Part shown: piece by piece, positions 3,871 to 58,689 of the stretch
Layout: every line of letters starts with the position of its first letter
Position numbering within the stretch: position 1 is the first letter of the stretch
Assembly (NCBI GenBank): GCA_903896045.1
Contig: CAITWD010000012.1
Span: 1 to 64,000, forward strand
Source of the DNA: an uncultured Actinomycetes bacterium
Lineage (GTDB): Bacteria; Actinomycetota; Thermoleophilia; Miltoncostaeales; Miltoncostaeaceae
DNA: 64,000 bases
Direction of reading: 5' to 3'
Translations under genes and position numbers: made by a program
The notes under the pieces: model-generated
What the model was told of the DNA's origin: nothing
Seen by the model: the letters and a program-made list of their open reading frames with translations, nothing else
Databases searched by the model: none

Positions 3871-6438
3871 ATGGGTCGAATGCTCATCATCTGTGAAAAA
3901 CCATCGGTTGCCCGCGATGTCGCGTCGGCGCTCTATGGTCGTTCGGTCAAAAAGCTGGGTGACTTCTTCGAAGGCCCCGACGGGGTCGTCGCCTTTGCGG
4001 TCGGCCATTTGCTGGAGCAGGTCGACCCGGATGAATACGACGCAAAATTCAAGAAATGGCGCTATGAGGATCTTCCGATCCTCCCTGAGGCGTTCCAGTA
4101 CAAGGCGCGCGACGCCCGGGCAAAGACACAACTCAGCGCCTTGCACAAGCTCATGGGTGCGGCGACAACCGATGTCATCGTCAACGCATGCGATGCCGGT
4201 CGCGAAGGCGAGCTGATCTTCAAGCTCATCCTGCAGACCGCATCAAAGGCGGCACGGGCAAAGCCCGTCAAGCGCGCATGGTTTAGCTCGATGACGCAAA
4301 AGGCGATCACCGAAGCGTTCGCGGCGCTGCGCGATGACGAACAGATGCGTCCCCTTGAAGAGGCTGCGCGCGCACGCAGCGAGGCTGACTGGCTCGTGGG
4401 AATGAACGCCACCCGCGCCGCCACGACCAAGGCCGGCTCCGCACGTCGAGTGCTCTCGCTCGGTCGCGTACAAACGCCGACCTTGGCGCTGATCGTCAAT
4501 CGCGACCTCGCGATCTCTGCGTTCGTTTCAGAAGACTTCTGGGAAGTCGACGGCAATTTTGTGACCGCAGAGGGCATCACCTATGTCGGGAAATGGCACG
4601 AAGGATCCACGACCCGCCTGACAACAGAAGCAGCAGCCACCGCGATCGCTGCCGCCACCACCGGCAAGCCTGCGGTCATTGCCTCGGTGGAAACCAAGCC
4701 ACAGGTGTCCCAGCCGCCACTGCTCTACGACCTCACGACACTCCAGCGCGAAGCCAACAGTCGATTTGGGTTCTCCGCACAACGCACCCTTTCGACCGCC
4801 CAAGCGCTGTATGACCAGCACAAGTTGCTGACCTATCCGAGAACAAATTCCCGGTACTTATCTGGCGACATGGTGGGGCAACTCAAATCCATCGCATCAG
4901 GGGTTGGGGCAGCTGCACCGGAATACGCCCAAGGAGCGCGATATGTCCTCGGGCTTGACAAGCTTCCTTTGCGTCGCGTTGTCGACGACACCAAGGTCAC
5001 CGATCACCACGCGATCATTCCGACCGAGGGAGACCACGACCTGAGCGGGCTTTCCCGTGATGAGCGTCACCTCTACGACATGGTTGCCCGACGCTTTTTG
5101 GCGGTGTTTCACCCTGCCGCAAAGTTCGAGAACACCGTCGTGGAAACCGAGTGTGCGACACACCGTTTCCGCAGCCGCGGAAAGGTAATGATCGACGCGG
5201 GATGGCGGGCGGTCTATGGCGACGAAGCGGCGCTGACTCCGCGCACCGACGCGGAACCCGCAGAGGCAGCCGAAGGTACCGATACCGAGCAAGATCAGTC
5301 GCTTCCACCACTCAAGCTCGCACAAGCGGTGACCTGTCAGGACGCACCGGTCCTCGCGAAGGCCACCAAGCCGCCTGCGCGATATAGCGAAGGCACACTC
5401 CTTCGCGCGATGGAGACCGCCGGCAAACTTGTGGACGATGATGACGCTGCCGAGGCGATGAAGGACGCTGGCCTTGGCACCCCGGCAACGCGAGCTGCAA
5501 CCATTGAACGCCTTCTCGATGCCGACTACATCGATCGCGAAGGCCGTCAACTGCGCGCAACCGAAAAGGGTGTCGGACTGATCACCATGCTCGGAGATCA
5601 CGCACTCACAAAGCCGGAGCTCACTGGCCAGTGGGAACAGCGCCTCAATAAGATCGAGCGCGGTGAGGACGCCCACGCCAGTTTTCACAACGATGTCGAG
5701 CAATTCACCAGAGATATCGTCGCGTGGTTCGCCGACAAGGAACGCGACGACCTTCGTGTTGAACGGCGCGTCCTTGCCCCCTGCCCCACCGATGGCTGCG
5801 ACGGCCAAATCGTCGAATACCCAAAGAGCTATGGGTGCAACAGCTATAAGAGCAAAGATGACACCGGTTGCGGCTACACGCTCTGGAAGACGCAAAACGG
5901 CAAAACCATCACCCTCGATGAGGCGCTCGAATACATCGCGGCAGGACTCTCGAGCAAGGATCTCACTGTCGAGCGCGAGATCATTGGTCCCTGCCCAACC
6001 GATGGCTGCGACGGCGACATCATTGAACGCAGCAAAAGCTTTGGATGCACCAGCTGGAAGAGCCGGACGGAGACGGGTTGCGGCTTTGTGATCTGGAAGA
6101 AGGCGCGCGGCCAGGCAGAGGTCGATGCCGACACGGCGCGCGAAATGGTTGCCAAGGGCGAAACCAACGCGGCGCCGGCGCCGGCAAAGGAGCCAATTGG
6201 CATCTGTGCGACTCCCGGGTGCGGCGGGCAGATCATTGAGAATTCCCGCGCCTACGGGTGCTCGAGTTGGAAGAGCCGAAAGAACCCTGGCTGTGGCTTT
6301 GTGATCTGGAAGAAAGAGCGTGGACAGGAACCAATTACCCGCGAACAGGCGATTGAACGCCTTGAAACCGCGCAAGTCGAGAATGGGACCGTCCCTGTTC
6401 CCGCTGATAGCACTGCCGCAGCGCCGGTAAGCGCGTAA
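3871..6438 (+). CDS. topB: DNA topoisomerase III (type IA) with three C-terminal zinc repeats
   Basis: An 855-residue type IA topoisomerase of the TopB branch. The Toprim domain begins at MLIICEKPSVARD and contains the acidic metal triad in NACDAGREGELIF near residue 107. The catalytic Tyr is in LTYPRTNSRYL at about residue 321, and DHHAIIPT follows near 380. Three topoisomerase C-terminal repeats start near residues 636, 706 and 777, each with four Cys in the pattern C-x4-C, C, C and a KSKxxxGCG-like core. It cuts and passes single strands in replication, recombination and decatenation. The start at 3871 is supported by a leaderless -10 element. The main TopA is expected elsewhere. Confidence 0.92.
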   Translation: MGRMLIICEKPSVARDVASALYGRSVKKLGDFFEGPDGVVAFAVGHLLEQVDPDEYDAKFKKWRYEDLPILPEAFQYKARDARAKTQLSALHKLMGAATTDVIVNACDAGREGELIFKLILQTASKAARAKPVKRAWFSSMTQKAITEAFAALRDDEQMRPLEEAARARSEADWLVGMNATRAATTKAGSARRVLSLGRVQTPTLALIVNRDLAISAFVSEDFWEVDGNFVTAEGITYVGKWHEGSTTRLTTEAAATAIAAATTGKPAVIASVETKPQVSQPPLLYDLTTLQREANSRFGFSAQRTLSTAQALYDQHKLLTYPRTNSRYLSGDMVGQLKSIASGVGAAAPEYAQGARYVLGLDKLPLRRVVDDTKVTDHHAIIPTEGDHDLSGLSRDERHLYDMVARRFLAVFHPAAKFENTVVETECATHRFRSRGKVMIDAGWRAVYGDEAALTPRTDAEPAEAAEGTDTEQDQSLPPLKLAQAVTCQDAPVLAKATKPPARYSEGTLLRAMETAGKLVDDDDAAEAMKDAGLGTPATRAATIERLLDADYIDREGRQLRATEKGVGLITMLGDHALTKPELTGQWEQRLNKIERGEDAHASFHNDVEQFTRDIVAWFADKERDDLRVERRVLAPCPTDGCDGQIVEYPKSYGCNSYKSKDDTGCGYTLWKTQNGKTITLDEALEYIAAGLSSKDLTVEREIIGPCPTDGCDGDIIERSKSFGCTSWKSRTETGCGFVIWKKARGQAEVDADTAREMVAKGETNAAPAPAKEPIGICATPGCGGQIIENSRAYGCSSWKSRKNPGCGFVIWKKERGQEPITREQAIERLETAQVENGTVPVPADSTAAAPVSA

Positions 6439-51811: not shown

Positions 51812-52952
51812 ATGCAGATTGAGGTTGGCGTCTCACGGCTTACCCGCCCCCCAGTCGACGCACTCATTCCCCTCGCAAAGCAACTCGAGGCATCGGGGAT
51901 CGATGCCATGTGGTTTGCCGATCACTTTCTGAATTGGTATCCACCGAGCGTGTGGACGCCCGACATCTTTGCTCAGGCGGCCACCGAGCCATCTGCACAC
52001 ACATTCGTTGACCCCGCTCCATATATGGGGGCAGTCGCCACACACACACTGAGCGGATGATGCTGGGCACCGGTGTGACCGATGCCATTCGTCGACACCC
52101 TGCAGTCGTGGCCCAGACATTTTCCACCGTGCATCACATGAGCCACGGCCGAGCGCGTCTCGGGGTCGGTGTCGGTCAGGCAGAAAATGTCGTGCCCTAC
52201 GGACTTCCGTACGAACGCACCGCATCCCGCCTGATCGAATTCGTTGAGGTCGTGCGTCTGTTGTGGTCGACCACTGACCCAGTGTCATTTTCAGGTGAAT
52301 TCTTCGAGCTCAATGACGCAATTCTCGGACTTGGACCATATGCCGGGACTCATCCCGAGATCTGGATCCCCGCACACCGTCCTCGCGTGCTCGACGCCGT
52401 TGGCCGACTTGCAGATGGATGGATTCCGATCATCGCTGATCCAGGTGAATACCGCCGGATGCTCGCAACGATTCGTGCAGCGAGCGAGCGGGCCGCCTGA
52501 TCAATGCGGTTCGGCCAGGACTCTATGTCTGGATCGTCTGCGATGAAGACCGTGATGTAGCCGAACGGGCCCTCGATTCGATTGCGCTCAGGTTTGTGGC
52601 ACTCACCGCTCCTGCCGAACTGTTTGAGGCTGCGGGGGTCGCGCACCCACTCGCAACAAAATGGGGCTTGTTGGACTTTGTCCCGACCCAACTCTCGCGT
52701 GACGACGCCCTCGCTGCCGCGCGTGCCATTCCCGACGAGGTGCTGCGGGCCTACTACACCTGGGGAACTCCGGACGACATTGTCGCGCGCCTCGAGCCAT
52801 TCATGCAGGCCGGATGCGAAGTCTTTAATCTCAGCAACATGACTCCAGCAAGCAACCAATCCCTCGCCCCGCATGCCGGCGCCCGCAACCTCGACATCGC
52901 CGCGGGTTTGCGCGCGGCGGCGGCCTCCATCTCCCCAACATTTGCGATCTAA
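51812..52952 (+). pseudogene. LLM-class (F420-type) oxidoreductase broken by two frameshifts
   Basis: Three successive frames together read as one luciferase-like oxidoreductase of about 380 residues: IEVGVSRLTRPP to VATHT (frame A), MMLGTGVTDAIRRHPAVVAQT to RRMLATIRAASE (frame B), then RLINAVRPGLYVWIV to PTFAI (frame C). The first break is at an AC repeat (52040-52049), where five AC units occur and four would restore THTERMM. The second is near 52490-52497, where one missing base would give ERAGRLI. Two independent breaks suggest a real pseudogene, but assembly error in a long-read or metagenomic sequence is possible. Nothing else is broken nearby. Confidence 0.85.
52040..52049 (+). repeat. 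(AC)5 dinucleotide tract at a frameshift
   Basis: ACACACACAC within the broken oxidoreductase gene. Loss of one AC unit restores the frame, so this is either slippage or a sequencing artefact. Confidence 0.75.
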
Positions 52953-52956
52953 ACGG

Positions 52957-53319
52957 ATGCATCGCCGCCAGGGAGCGCTCATTGCCGATGTGATCGTCGT
53001 TCTGGGATTTGTTGCAATCGGCCGTGCCAATCACGGCGAGGGCAACGCAATTACGGAAACGTTGAGTGTGGCCGCGCCGTTTCTCATTGGACTTGCACTG
53101 GGGTGGCGACGCATCTGGCGTGCACCGAACCCCACAACGCCCGCAATGGGCCTGCGGGTACTCGTCCCCACAGTCGTTATTGGACTCTTGCTGCGAGCCC
53201 TGCTTTTCAATCGCGCGGTACCACTCGCCTTCGACATCGTCGCAACGGTATTTCTGGCAGCGACGTTGATTGGTTGGCGCGTGATCTGGTCCAAGTTCTC
53301 TCGGAAGCTCCTCGGCTAG
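52957..53319 (+). CDS. DUF3054-like membrane protein
   Basis: A 120-residue protein with four membrane helices and the DUF3054 pattern: DVIVVLGFVAIGRANHG, then APFLIGLALGWR and a C-terminal WR motif (LIGWRVIW). The function is unknown. It begins 4 bp after the end of the broken oxidoreductase. Confidence 0.78.
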   Translation: MHRRQGALIADVIVVLGFVAIGRANHGEGNAITETLSVAAPFLIGLALGWRRIWRAPNPTTPAMGLRVLVPTVVIGLLLRALLFNRAVPLAFDIVATVFLAATLIGWRVIWSKFSRKLLG

Positions 53320-53341: not shown

Positions 53342-54541
53342 CTACAGAGTGGGATCGGTGCTGGGCTCTGCTCCATTGAGCACGGCCACCCGCCCACGCC
53401 CGATCAGTTGGGCGAGAACGACAAGCACCACCATGATTGTGGCCGTGCACACAAAGAGGGCTGCGCCTCCCCAGTATTCGTACACCGGACCTGCAGCAAT
53501 CGCCGTGAGCCCTGCCCCAAGAAACCCCACACCGCGCGCAAGTCCTTGTCCGGCACCCGCACGACGTGCACCCGACGCACGCGCCATCGCTGCGGCAGAC
53601 CCAGGGCCCGCGAGTGCCTGCCCCACCGACTCGATCAAACTCACCAAGATGATCGCTGCCACTGAGGCCAACAGGCCATAGCTCACCACTGCGACCACCA
53701 CGATCCATATGCCAATCACCGAACCGCGAAGCGGACCGAACCGATCGATGAAACGTCCAGCGATCGGCGCAAGGATCATGAATGGCAGGGTAAAAATCGC
53801 CAGACTCAATGCGACCACGAACGGACTCGCACCTCGATCTGCAAGGAACTTCGGCCACAAGGCGCTATAGGTGCCCACCGGGGCAGTCACGGCGACAGAG
53901 AGGAGAAGCGCCACCCAGACCTCGCGGTGACGCAGGAGATCAAATGCAGCCCATGATGGACCAGCATCGTTCGTACTCTGGCCCACGCCATCACCCTTAG
54001 GCGGCACCCTGGCATCGCGGGGAATTTCGACCCCCAGTACGACGGGAACCAAAATCAAGGTGACAATTCCCGCAACGATCAGACCGTTTTGGGTCCCAAA
54101 TTGGGCCAGTAGCAACGCCCCGAGAAAGGGACCTGCTGCAAATCCTGCAAATTCAGCAACCTGTAGACGCGCGATGCGCTCCCCCACTCCCTGGGCGCGC
54201 AGACGGATCACCAATGCCGAGGCAGCAGGAACAAACATTCCATAGCCCACTCCCGCAACCGCCCGCCACAGGGTGAGCGTCACGACCGAATCCGCGAGCC
54301 CCGATCCAACCGATGAGATGCCCGCAAGCACCACGCTCGAAATGAGCAGTGCGCGCTCATGACCACGATCGGCCTGCGGTCCGAGAAATAACTCAGCGAC
54401 CACCCCGGTGAGCAAACTGACCCCAAAGATGATCCCCAGGCTGGCAACCGGAAATCTGTGCTCCTGTTGGATTGCGGGAGTCATCGGCGCGATGACGAGC
54501 ACCGCGCAGCTCATCATGAACATGGCCAGATAGAGCCGCAC
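53342..54541 (-). CDS. MFS transporter
   Basis: A 399-residue major facilitator protein with twelve hydrophobic segments. The motif-A-like GPQADRGHERALL lies between helices 2 and 3 near residue 52, and its repeat RFIDRFGPLRGS lies near residue 263. Substrates are unknown, but the family exports drugs or metabolites. The start is GTG, 6 nt after a good -10 (TATAGT), so the message is probably leaderless. Confidence 0.88.
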   Translation of the reverse strand: MRLYLAMFMMSCAVLVIAPMTPAIQQEHRFPVASLGIIFGVSLLTGVVAELFLGPQADRGHERALLISSVVLAGISSVGSGLADSVVTLTLWRAVAGVGYGMFVPAASALVIRLRAQGVGERIARLQVAEFAGFAAGPFLGALLLAQFGTQNGLIVAGIVTLILVPVVLGVEIPRDARVPPKGDGVGQSTNDAGPSWAAFDLLRHREVWVALLLSVAVTAPVGTYSALWPKFLADRGASPFVVALSLAIFTLPFMILAPIAGRFIDRFGPLRGSVIGIWIVVVAVVSYGLLASVAAIILVSLIESVGQALAGPGSAAAMARASGARRAGAGQGLARGVGFLGAGLTAIAAGPVYEYWGGAALFVCTATIMVVLVVLAQLIGRGRVAVLNGAEPSTDPTL

Positions 54542-54553: not shown

Positions 54554-55002
54554 GAAGCACCCCTCGGACCACGACCCATACACCGTGTGCACTGCAACAC
54601 CTGGCTGGACGCCCAGAGCCAGGCAGTAACGCAGCGATTTCACGGAATTACACGCCCTTTTGCAGCAACTTCGTCGCCGCATGCTCCGGTGATCCAGCCG
54701 GGCGTGCAACACATGCTCTGCAAACCCCCAAAAACTCGCACGATGCATTTCACACCGCTGACGAGATCGCTTCTACCGTGGGATTACCGGAGAGGTGTCG
54801 AGCCAGCGGGGGCACTACGTGCCACCGCCAAGAATGGATTCTGTGGGTCGCCCGCACCGGTGGAACAGGACATACCATGATTGGAGTCGTTAGATGCCTC
54901 GTTTCTACTAGTGAGAACGTTGCACGATTCCGACGATTCGCTCACGGGGCCTGCCCCATCTCCCATCCATTCATGATCGGACGAGAGAGAGTAATCGTCT
55001 CC
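54554..55002. other. Non-coding stretch, candidate structured RNA (about 54786-55042, plus strand)
   Basis: No frame here looks like protein. On the plus strand a TACCGT at 54774-54779 could be a -10 element. Downstream are strong local stems: GCGG-G-GGCAC-TAC-GTGCC-A-CCGC around 54806-54828, a wobble-containing GGAGTCGT/ACGATTCC pair near 54882/54924 enclosing CGTT(T)CT/AGAACG, and GGGG-CCTG-CCCC near 54946. A strong intrinsic terminator closes the segment, although no plus-strand gene precedes it. It does not match tmRNA, RNase P RNA or SRP RNA motifs. Confidence 0.4.
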
Positions 55003-55042
55003 CGTTTGGGGTCGTGAAGGTGCGACCCCAAACGTGTTTTTT
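55003..55042 (+). terminator. Strong Rho-independent terminator (plus strand)
   Basis: CGTTTGGGGTCG at 55003-55014 and CGACCCCAAACG at 55023-55034 form a perfect 12-bp stem with an 8-nt loop, followed by TGTTTTTT. The T-run is only on the plus strand, so it serves a plus-strand transcript although the nearest plus-strand gene upstream ends at 53319. Confidence 0.9.
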
Positions 55043-55101: not shown

Positions 55102-55896
55102 CTAGGCGGGGGCCTTGTTCAGCGTTCGTTGTCTGCGCACCGCGTCATATACGTCGCTTCCCACAAGCCCCACGGCAATGGGCACCGTTGCGGGAAGCTC
55201 GGTGGTCCACAAAAATCCCACATCGCACGCGACTGCGAGCCCGACAATTACCAACGTCAATTTCCACTGACGCGCGGGCTGGCGCACCACAAGGGCCCCC
55301 ACCACACAGGCGATAAAAAAATCGCCATATCCCATCGCGGCCGAGCCAAAGAGCACTGCTTGAAGTCGCGGAAGTTGTGCAATCGGGTGCGCCTGGATGA
55401 GCAGATTGTTCGACACGGTGAGCTGATTACCAAACACTAAGACCGCATCAACGACGGCCATCACCACGACACCCACGCGCACAAGACCAGATGGGGCCAC
55501 TGCCACAAGCACTCCCGCCAGGCTGACGCAGGACAGCGCCGTCAACAGAGTCGCAGCCACTTGGCCAAGTAACGCGCTCGGCAGCGCCCACACAAGAGCA
55601 AAGAGCGGCAGAACGAGGACTCCATACATCGGCCGCGCCCCATGCATCGCCCACCCCAACGACACGGCCGCGCAGACGGGGACCGCCAAGAGCGCGAGAT
55701 ATGTCAGTTGATCTGGCGCAGCCGCGATCCGCGTCAGCCCAAATGCAACCGCAAGAAGTGAGCCCACAGGGATGAGTGCCCACCACCCAGACCGCAGACG
55801 CGAGAGATGGCGCTCAGGCCATTCCCATACCCCCGGGACTGCAACCAAAAGCCCCTGCAGCACCGACAAGATGAGAATGGATGGCCAAAATGGCAT
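55102..55896 (-). CDS. Multi-pass membrane protein with GxGD motif (presenilin/SPP-like candidate)
   Basis: A 264-residue protein with about eight or nine hydrophobic segments. Asp150 sits in VVVMAVVDAVLVFG, 42 residues before GYGD (189-192) in MGYGDFFIACVVG, and LPATVPIA (234-241) follows near the C-terminus. An intramembrane Asp, a GxGD motif and a PAL-like motif in this order are the hallmarks of presenilin/signal-peptide-peptidase-type proteases. The first Asp lacks the usual YD, so the assignment is tentative. The ATG overlaps the stop of the gene upstream (TGATG). Confidence 0.55.
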   Translation of the reverse strand: MPFWPSILILSVLQGLLVAVPGVWEWPERHLSRLRSGWWALIPVGSLLAVAFGLTRIAAAPDQLTYLALLAVPVCAAVSLGWAMHGARPMYGVLVLPLFALVWALPSALLGQVAATLLTALSCVSLAGVLVAVAPSGLVRVGVVVMAVVDAVLVFGNQLTVSNNLLIQAHPIAQLPRLQAVLFGSAAMGYGDFFIACVVGALVVRQPARQWKLTLVIVGLAVACDVGFLWTTELPATVPIAVGLVGSDVYDAVRRQRTLNKAPA

Positions 55897-56759
55897 CAGC
55901 CTGTGCGGCCCGCCACCGGCAGAGCGAACAGCTGATTGGTCATCTCGTGATGGGGACCACTCATGCCGGCCCACGCAACCTCACCGCTCGCCGGATCAAT
56001 GTCGAGCACCATCCATAGCGGTGCACCAATGACGACACCGGTGATCCGCACGAGATGTCGCTGCCCGCGTCGCACAGGACCGATAATCATTGACGATCCA
56101 ATCCCCGGGCTCACCCATTCGAATCCTGTGCGCCACCCCGGCCAGTTGAGCACCTGCACTGCACCGCGACTGCGCGAGGTCACCCGGTCACCAATGTAGG
56201 TGCTGGTGATGGTGGTCGCAGGTAGATCCAATGATGACCGACTCACGGTGATTTGCCCGGTCGCACCCAGCTGCAATGTGTGACGCGCTGCGCGCGCGAG
56301 CACAGATGCCCCTGACTCAGGCTGCACCGGAATATGAAAGGGCACGATGATCGGGGACCGTGTCGGTGTGATCACGTGTATCTGAGTACCCAAGAGCGCT
56401 GTCGCGGGTGCGATCCCTGTCCAGCATTCGGAGTTGGATCGTGTGAGTGCGATGTGCGCCACACCCACCCCGCTGAGCCACACCTGGGTCGGTGAATCAG
56501 ATGCTGCGCCAACATCAATTACCTCGACACTTAGGCGACGAGCGGGGGCTGACCCGGCAATGACATTCATCGCCACCACCCCCGAACCCACCCCCTGTCC
56601 AATACTGGTCACACCGACATCGCTGGCCCCAATGCACGACGGTGACGACGGAAATATCTCGGTAACGAGCCTAGGTCCGACCACGATGGCGGCAGCGACA
56701 CACATCGCGAGCGCGACCAGCGCCGCTGGCAGTTTGCGACGCACCCCTCGACCGCTCAT
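55896..56759 (-). CDS. Membrane-anchored extracytoplasmic protein of unknown function
   Basis: A 287-residue protein with an N-terminal basic stretch and one hydrophobic segment (about residues 10-30), then a mostly beta-type domain rich in Val, Ser and Gly with two Cys (near 42 and 113) that could pair. I recognise no family. It is translationally coupled to the GxGD membrane protein downstream, so it may be its partner or substrate. Confidence 0.65.
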   Translation of the reverse strand: MSGRGVRRKLPAALVALAMCVAAAIVVGPRLVTEIFPSSPSCIGASDVGVTSIGQGVGSGVVAMNVIAGSAPARRLSVEVIDVGAASDSPTQVWLSGVGVAHIALTRSNSECWTGIAPATALLGTQIHVITPTRSPIIVPFHIPVQPESGASVLARAARHTLQLGATGQITVSRSSLDLPATTITSTYIGDRVTSRSRGAVQVLNWPGWRTGFEWVSPGIGSSMIIGPVRRGQRHLVRITGVVIGAPLWMVLDIDPASGEVAWAGMSGPHHEMTNQLFALPVAGRTG

Positions 56760-57028: not shown

Positions 57029-57403
57029 ATGAAACTCGTGATCGGTATCGTCCGTCCCGAACGGACGAATGACGTACTCGAAGCACTATTTCGCGCCCAA
57101 ATCCGTGGGTTTTCGCTCAGCCGGGTGCAGGGACACGGAGGCGAGCTTGAACGAGTTGAGACCTACCGTGGCACCACGGTGAAAATGAACCTCGCAGAAA
57201 AGGCCCGCTTCGAGGTCGCAGTCTCAGATGAATTTGTCCAGCCGACCATCGACGCGCTCTGCGCAGGTGGACGCACTGGAGAGGTTGGCGATGGAAAGGT
57301 CTTTGTGCTTGACCTCGAGCAGGCGGTGCGTATCCGCACGGGCGAAAGTGACAGCTCTGCCGTCACCCCGATCAACCCACAAGATGATCTGGAACAGCAA
57401 TGA
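57029..57403 (+). CDS. glnK: PII-family nitrogen regulator (atypical T-loop)
   Basis: A 124-residue PII protein. The ATP-binding GRTGEVGDGKVFV lies near residues 81-93 and the RIRTGESD C-terminal signature near 103. Counting aligns with E. coli GlnB: Tyr46 and Lys58 are kept, but residue 51 is Val and residue 39 is Glu, where GlnB has the uridylylated Tyr51 and 2-oxoglutarate-contacting Gln39. PII binds and plugs Amt. The gene overlaps amt by 4 bp (ATGA), and GGGGACGAGG is the ribosome-binding site. Confidence 0.92.
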   Translation: MKLVIGIVRPERTNDVLEALFRAQIRGFSLSRVQGHGGELERVETYRGTTVKMNLAEKARFEVAVSDEFVQPTIDALCAGGRTGEVGDGKVFVLDLEQAVRIRTGESDSSAVTPINPQDDLEQQ

Positions 57404-58689
57404 GCGGTCATATTGACTCAGGCGCAACCGCATGGATGATGACCGCCACTGCGCTTGTGCTGATGATGACGCCCGCCCTTGGGCTCTTTTATGCAGGCCT
57501 CGTGCGCTCCAAGAACACACTCAATACCTTCATGATGAGTATCGCTGCACTGGGTGTTGCCACCATCACATGGGCGCTCGTGGGGTATTCGTTGGCATTC
57601 GATTCGGGCGATGGATTTATCGGCGGCGGCAAGTTCTTTTTTATGAACCACATCGGTTTTGAGGCACAGCCCGGTACGCAAATCCCCCAGCTGTTGTTCT
57701 TTGCCTTTGAGGCATCGTTTTGCATCATCACGGCCGCGCTGGTATCTGGTGCAGTTGTCGAACGCATGAAGTTTTCAACCTTTTTGATCTTCATGGCGTT
57801 GTGGTCGACCCTCATCTATCCCGTACTCGCACATTGGGTCTGGGGCGGAGGATGGCTCCAAGCACATGGCGTACTGGATTTTGCCGGTGGTGTGCCCGTG
57901 GAAATGGCATCGGGCTTCTCGGCGCTCGCCGCGGCGCTCGCAGTTGGCGCACGCAAGGACTATGGGCGCCAGGCGCTCTTGCCCCACAATGTCGTCTTCG
58001 TGCTTCTCGGCGCGGGGCTGTTGTGGTTTGGGTGGTTTGGTTTTAACGGTGGAAGCGGCTACTCAACGGGTCACTCAAGCATTCTGGCCTTCACCAATAC
58101 CCTTCTGGCACCGGCATGCACGCTGGTGGTGTGGTTTGTGCTCGACCTATTACGCGATCAACGCGTCACCGCCATTGGCGCAGCAACGGCAATTGTGGTC
58201 GGAGCGGTCGGCATCACGCCCGCCTGCGGATACGTCAGCCCGATTGCTGCGATGCTCCTTGGAGGGCTCGCCGCGATCCCGAGCTATGCATTTATTACCT
58301 GGAGGACCCGGACCCGCCTCGATGAGTCACTTGATGTGCTCGGGGCCCACGGCCTTGCCGGGCTGACGGGCATTATCTTCATCGGATTCTTCGCCCAACG
58401 CAGCTGGAATGGTGTGACGAATGGACTGCTGCACGGCCACCCTGGCCTGCTCGGTTGGCAGGTTGTCGCCGCTCTGGCGGGTCCGGCATATGCATTCGTG
58501 GGAACATTCGCGATCCTGAAGGTCCTCAACGCGCTCATGCCGATGCGCGTAACTGCCCTTGAAGAATCGATCGGAATGGATGTCGTCGATCACGGGGAGC
58601 AGGCATACACCGATGGTGAAGGTGCGATCCTCGTCGCACACGAAGGATTTTTCGACTTCGATCGATCACGCCGGGACTCGGACGGATGA
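57400..58689 (+). CDS. amt: Ammonium transporter (Amt) with Glu at the first twin-His site
   Basis: A 429-residue Amt/Mep/Rh protein with eleven membrane helices. GLFYAGLVRSKNTLNTF lies near residue 28, and the pore Phe gate is near FEASFCIITAALVSGAVVER. The twin-His site is altered: VPVEMASG has Glu168 where AmtB has His168, while DVLGAHGLAG keeps the second (His317). It imports ammonium under low nitrogen and is coupled to the PII gene. A His-to-Glu change at this site is known in some fungal Mep proteins. Confidence 0.95.
   Translation: MSGHIDSGATAWMMTATALVLMMTPALGLFYAGLVRSKNTLNTFMMSIAALGVATITWALVGYSLAFDSGDGFIGGGKFFFMNHIGFEAQPGTQIPQLLFFAFEASFCIITAALVSGAVVERMKFSTFLIFMALWSTLIYPVLAHWVWGGGWLQAHGVLDFAGGVPVEMASGFSALAAALAVGARKDYGRQALLPHNVVFVLLGAGLLWFGWFGFNGGSGYSTGHSSILAFTNTLLAPACTLVVWFVLDLLRDQRVTAIGAATAIVVGAVGITPACGYVSPIAAMLLGGLAAIPSYAFITWRTRTRLDESLDVLGAHGLAGLTGIIFIGFFAQRSWNGVTNGLLHGHPGLLGWQVVAALAGPAYAFVGTFAILKVLNALMPMRVTALEESIGMDVVDHGEQAYTDGEGAILVAHEGFFDFDRSRRDSDG

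Follow-up and report, generated by a model that had tools for sequence, protein, structure and literature searches.

The window (the whole 64,000-nucleotide stretch of DNA analysed here) contains, at 54785-55042 on the plus strand, an element that is likely to be a real, genus-specific, stand-alone small-RNA gene. In the reading that we favour, with less confidence, its product would act in trans by base-pairing with the mRNA of an efflux pump. The support comes at the level of sequence from conservation, covariation, complementarity, and promoter-like and terminator sequences, and the element has at this level the attributes of trans-encoded small RNAs: a promoter and terminator of its own, independence from its neighbors and conserved complementarity to a distant mRNA. 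Its host belongs to a genus of uncultured soil bacteria in the Thermoleophilia, a class known mostly from metagenomes, from which our literature search found no described small RNA; the one proposed here was found from the sequence by itself and comes with one probable target, with compensatory change between its own locus and that of the target. If true, it would serve as a test case for how small RNAs regulate in Actinobacteria that lack Hfq, and for the control of an efflux pump of the multidrug type by an RNA. The features of the locus are:

54732-54755, plus strand: conserved upstream box AACTCGCACGATGCATTTCACAC, including the -35-like TTCACA (54749-54754); three genomes agree in almost every column
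54774-54779, plus strand: -10-like TACCGT (TAGCGT and TAGGCT in the relatives), from the three-genome alignment
54785-55042, plus strand: proposed small RNA of ~257 nt, from promoter, conservation, covariation and terminator; in the relatives the length up to the 3' hairpin is comparable
54785-54862, plus strand: helix P1 (54785-54789 with 54858-54862) closing P2, P3 (54806-54828) and P4 (54831-54842), from covariation
54831-54842, plus strand: P4 hairpin with an invariant AUGGA loop (ANGGAN hexaloop), from alignment and covariation
54858-54870, plus strand: pairing block I, CGGTGGAACAGGA, 13 nt with complementarity to the leader of the efflux mRNA, from core match and duplex
54869-54888, plus strand: P5 hairpin (GAC..UCCA-UGAU-UGGA..GUC in the relatives) presenting block II, predicted in the alignment
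54875-54883, plus strand: pairing block II, CCATGATTG, 9 nt with complementarity to that leader, from core match and duplex
55003-55042, plus strand: intrinsic terminator (stem-loop and T6), from stem search and Markov control

The sequence-only reading had pointed to a 12-bp perfect stem with a T-run as the end of a possible free-standing small RNA. This was borne out: the stem at 55003-55034 has 12 perfect pairs (14 when the inner G-T pairs are counted) and is followed by TG and then T6 at 55037-55042. It is the sole perfect stem of at least 9 pairs followed by at least five Ts on either strand of the window, as against a mean of 0.0 in 30 Markov sequences. The distance of 1.7 kb given from the last plus-strand gene is roughly right, the plus-strand ORF 52873-53319 ending about 1.7 kb before 55003. 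The 3' hairpin (GGGGTCG..CGACCCC) is retained in the three-genome alignment and the T-run is present in the window copy only, which has the strongest terminator among the copies of the element. Compared with shuffled sequences, 54774-55042 folds with unusual stability on the plus strand (z -2.8) and on the minus strand (z -4.0); since both strands are more stable than shuffles, the stability of the single sequence is no evidence for strand.

The window genome (1.67 Mb in 41 contigs) is placed in a genus of the Thermoleophilia that otherwise consists of the Chersky assemblies, and DNA similarity was found within this genus only. The element adjoins an MFS transporter gene at the same place in three of the four genus genomes (the window genome G000, G003 and G001). 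In the fourth, G002, contig C200 ends at 6274, inside the MFS gene, so the lack of the element there is uninformative. A model of the element (R1) searched against 399 genomes of the class recovered the genus only, plus one match at chance level (E 0.0099). The flanking genes, both on the minus strand, are the MFS transporter (53342-54541) and an unnamed membrane protein (55102-55974) without a match in Pfam or NCBIfam. The MFS gene has TATAGT, TATAGT or TAATAT exactly 6 nt before its GTG start (window 54541) in the three genomes, and its mRNA is likely to be leaderless. Further away, a gene for a luciferase-like (LLM-class) oxidoreductase at 51812-52952 (plus strand) is spread over three adjacent frames; its counterpart in G001 is a single 393-aa ORF, and the window version appears to be a frameshifted pseudogene or the product of assembly errors. 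On the other side, a glnK-amtB pair (P-II nitrogen regulator, then ammonium transporter) occupies 57029-58689 on the plus strand.

The possible -10 (TACCGT) of the sequence-only reading is present and conserved as TANNNT after the conserved TTCACA, at exactly 19 nt in all three genomes; the letters of the spacer are largely unconserved and its length is fixed. A single instance of the motif TTTCACAC-N18-TANNNT is present in the window, and from the position of the -10 the RNA would start near 54785-54787. Intergenic DNA in decay, with a terminator arisen by chance, would suit the eroding neighborhood, in which a fabF-like gene has been lost and the oxidoreductase gene is frameshifted, and is contradicted by conservation, covariation and the fixed-spacing promoter in the relatives; we consider it very improbable.

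Comparison of the three genomes revealed a 5' domain at 54785-54889 in which P1 closes P2, P3 and P4 and a short linker leads on to P5. Two-sided changes are seen at 6 of its 29 pairs, a level reached in 2 of 500 shuffles and compared with 0-2 in slid controls, these counts being small as they derive from only three small-RNA sequences. The P4 stem, for instance, is AGA/UCU in the window and CGA/UCG in the relatives; the pairs of P5 are invariant in the three-sequence alignment and carry no covariation support. The alifold program gave -36.9 kcal/mol with a covariance contribution of +0.44 for the plus strand, as against -31.0 and 0 for the minus strand, and seven cells are wobble-paired on the plus strand only versus one on the minus strand only, three of the seven representing one invariant terminal pair. 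The several nested stems noted earlier are borne out in part: the comparison yields P1 to P5 within 54785-54889, and the middle of the RNA (54912-55000) is unconserved. The most conserved stretch is 54858-54883.

No known RNA class had been recognized in the region, and this holds: a scan with Rfam covariance models, including those for 6S RNA, tmRNA, RNase P and riboswitches, produced nothing in the region at the gathering threshold or at E-values up to 5, the sole Rfam match in the whole window being a tRNA. The idea of a free-standing small RNA is likewise supported by the conserved promoter, the 5' domain with its compensatory changes and the conserved 3' hairpin, and by persistence of the element where no co-directional gene follows. 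Conservation and covariation in relatives, the absence of which had been named as telling against that idea, are both found in the congeneric genomes.

Just 3' of P5 lies a five-codon ORF (54894-54911, plus strand) with GGAG at a constant distance before it, which reads MPRFY-stop in the window and MPKIW-stop and MPRHW-stop in the relatives (M-P-x-x-aromatic-stop); it could be a translated mini-ORF within the small RNA. We also considered an ORF starting at the AUG of the core sequence described below and rejected it as unconserved, its length being 46, 17 and 39 aa in the three genomes, with a frameshift in one copy at the second locus. The conserved small ORF with its GGAG, together with the position of the element directly upstream of a co-directional fabF-like ketosynthase ortholog on the plus strand in G001 and G003 (the two proteins being 67 percent identical), would also fit a leader RNA of the attenuator or uORF type that was orphaned in the window genome by loss of fabF. 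This genome has no fabF ortholog (best remaining match 46 percent) and keeps the element with the strongest terminator of all copies, and no element motif was found upstream of the fabF orthologs in 12 other genomes of the family that were scanned. Moreover, the window element is unaccelerated: it has 12 unique changes over 104 sites against 103 at third positions of the MFS gene, as compared with 7 against 58 and 16 against 60 in the relatives, the window lineage being the longest branch in that gene. Given this persistence without acceleration in a genome that has lost fabF, the leader explanation is weakened, and we hold it to be doubtful.

The conserved core, CGGYGGAACAGGA-N-AY-CCATGA, occurs at one further place in each of the four genus genomes, in every case between a TPR gene and a gene for a DHA2/EmrB-type efflux protein, both on the opposite strand; in the window genome this second locus is on another contig (C10, minus strand). 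The efflux protein scores above the cut-off of TIGR00711 (efflux_EmrB). A search with a model of the core (R2) found only these two places per genome, the small RNA and the region before the efflux gene, and when widened it likewise stayed within the genus. The exact core pattern, searched in 84,980 species, was recovered from three genus genomes and as four isolated matches in unrelated species, a number about that expected by chance; none was found in viral contigs.

Examination of the second locus on both strands gave -32.5 with a covariance contribution of +0.94 for the minus strand and -28.0 with -0.06 for the plus strand in alifold. Wobbles specific to one strand (C-A mismatches on one being G-U on the other) number 6 on the minus and 3 on the plus, a count that includes cells from imperfect alignment, some of the 3 being alignment shifts; counts of pair changes are barely above shuffles. 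Before the efflux gene, all four genomes carry CTYAAGT-N13-GCCGA, with fixed spacing and an unconserved spacer. The motif precedes the leader's 5' hairpin by 7-8 nt, immediately ahead of the complementary segment, and the eleven main sequences scanned contain it at no other place. These sigma28-like two-block promoters are located as follows:

L022, from 6277, minus strand: before the DHA2 efflux gene
L021, from 2524, minus strand: before the DHA2 efflux gene
L064, from 2111, plus strand: before the DHA2 efflux gene
L065, from 1483, minus strand: before the DHA2 efflux gene

The sigma28 consensus is TAAAGTTT-n11-GCCGATAA (PMC2859248), and the spacing in CTYAAGT-N13-GCCGAnnT is equivalent to n11; the putative promoter matches the consensus in arrangement. 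The better minus-strand fold, the wobbles and this promoter together suggest that the efflux mRNA probably has its 5' leader at the second locus, and that the shared core is a complementarity between two RNAs.

Our first reading of the second locus was as a paralog of the small RNA, that is, two related small RNAs on the same plus strand sharing a functional core without any antisense relation. The core does have the same sense when both loci are read on the plus strand, the second locus also folds on that strand, and every genome in which both contigs are complete has exactly two copies. This reading was dropped after the alifold and wobble tests of strand, which, with the fixed-spacing promoter, support the minus strand of the second locus better; furthermore, the similarity stops sharply at the core and the flanking structures are unrelated. 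We now regard it as unlikely. Somewhat less credence still is due to a riboswitch-like cis-regulatory element on the minus strand before two MFS transporter genes. Both loci are upstream of such genes in the same relative orientation, and 54774-55042 also has an unusual folding energy on the minus strand; against this, the window MFS gene has its -10-like sequence 6 nt before the start codon in all three genomes, as leaderless genes do, the pairs of the small RNA favor the plus strand in alifold and wobbles, and the element has both its promoter and its terminator on the plus strand, its minus strand being free of a sigma28-like block.

For a small RNA acting on the efflux mRNA, the duplex predicted in the window genome comprises about 24 of 26 bp (-37.9 kcal/mol), arranged as helices of 13 and 9 bp with a short, interrupted stretch between them. 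Across three genomes the best local duplexes range from -38.6 to -42.7 against a null mean of about -28 (sd 1.5-2.6), these energies being taken from local windows since those of whole-length RNAs ignore intramolecular folding and are uninformative. Within block I there is a co-change from T to C: CGGCGG is found in both RNAs of G001 and CGGTGG in both RNAs elsewhere, and the small RNA of G001 pairs at -37.7 with its own target as against -28.9 to -30.2 with the other three, in a comparison of only four target sequences. The base before block I is C in both RNAs of G000 and T in both of G003, and disagrees in G001; one position of block II is without a pair in G001, and the C-C mismatch in the middle is constant. 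In the predicted folds the complementary segment has a hairpin-linker-hairpin arrangement in both RNAs, and contacts between loops and linkers are likely to start the pairing. The pairing site precedes the start codon of the pump by ~170-250 nt and is away from the ribosome-binding site.

We infer that both RNAs are transcribed and pair in the cell, and propose the following course. The small RNA of ~257 nt would be made from its own promoter and end at the intrinsic terminator. Its 5' domain would present the linker GGAACAG and hairpin P5, a combined segment (CGGUGGAACAGGAcAUaCCAUGAUUG) complementary to the first ~30 nt of the predicted DHA2/EmrB-type efflux permease mRNA, which would begin on the minus strand just after GCCGANNT, downstream of the GCCGA block. 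Pairing would set in by loop-loop and linker-linker contact, and the extended duplex would replace the 5' hairpin of the efflux mRNA, which might thereby be destabilized or refolded, with less synthesis of the pump as the outcome; between repression and activation we lean slightly to the former.

All four genus genomes encode CsrA, and Hfq was found in none of them. In one, csrA (L087, 9697-9900, plus strand) is beside an rpoZ-like gene, with no fliW or flagellar genes recognized near csrA in the stretches read. P4 (AUGGAN hexaloop on a stem that covaries) and, in the target leader, the inner hairpin (ANGGA, N being the sole variable base of the motif), both on their proposed functional strands, resemble the ANGGA apical loops of CsrA/RsmE sites in Csr/Rsm targets and sponges (PMC4005645). 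CsrA as the protein partner of the pairing is a lead rather than a result. We rejected a CsrA sponge of the CsrB/RsmZ type: the window RNA has 6 GGA motifs versus 4.5 expected and 1 ANGGA versus 0.95. The fullest version of the proposal, with small RNA and target at separate loci co-evolving in trans through mirror-image hairpin-linker-hairpin folds, ANGGA hairpins allowing CsrA to act as matchmaker without Hfq, and an EmrB-type pump tied to a sigma28-type regulon, is as a whole speculative and rather unlikely.

Among known systems, ANTAR-target RNAs have two adjacent hairpins, each with a hexaloop bearing A1 and G4 (PMC8164766); this candidate was set aside, such a hexaloop being present in P4 and in neither the adjacent P3 nor P5. 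Ms1 and 6S RNA are, like the window RNA, free-standing structured RNAs of 200-300 nt in Actinobacteria (PMC9130861). Unlike them, the window RNA is genus-restricted and has no Rfam match, and its P1-P5 form a short multibranched domain in place of their long bulged hairpin. In Bacillus subtilis, the pairing of the small RNA SR1 with ahrC mRNA is promoted by CsrA; like the window RNA, SR1 is a separate gene with its own promoter and intrinsic terminator, and has an extended imperfect complementarity to the leader of a distant mRNA (PMC8501984). CsrA is present there as in this genus, where Hfq was not found. The two systems have no known sequence similarity, coding of a peptide by the window RNA is putative, and unlike SR1-ahrC the pairing here would involve the extreme 5' end of a long leader, a long way from the start codon. 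In the CopA/CopT pair, both partners are hairpin-linker-hairpin structures with complementary loops and linkers, as predicted here. Such antisense pairs are cis-encoded and fully complementary, whereas the partners described here reside on different contigs and are complementary over ~26 nt only.
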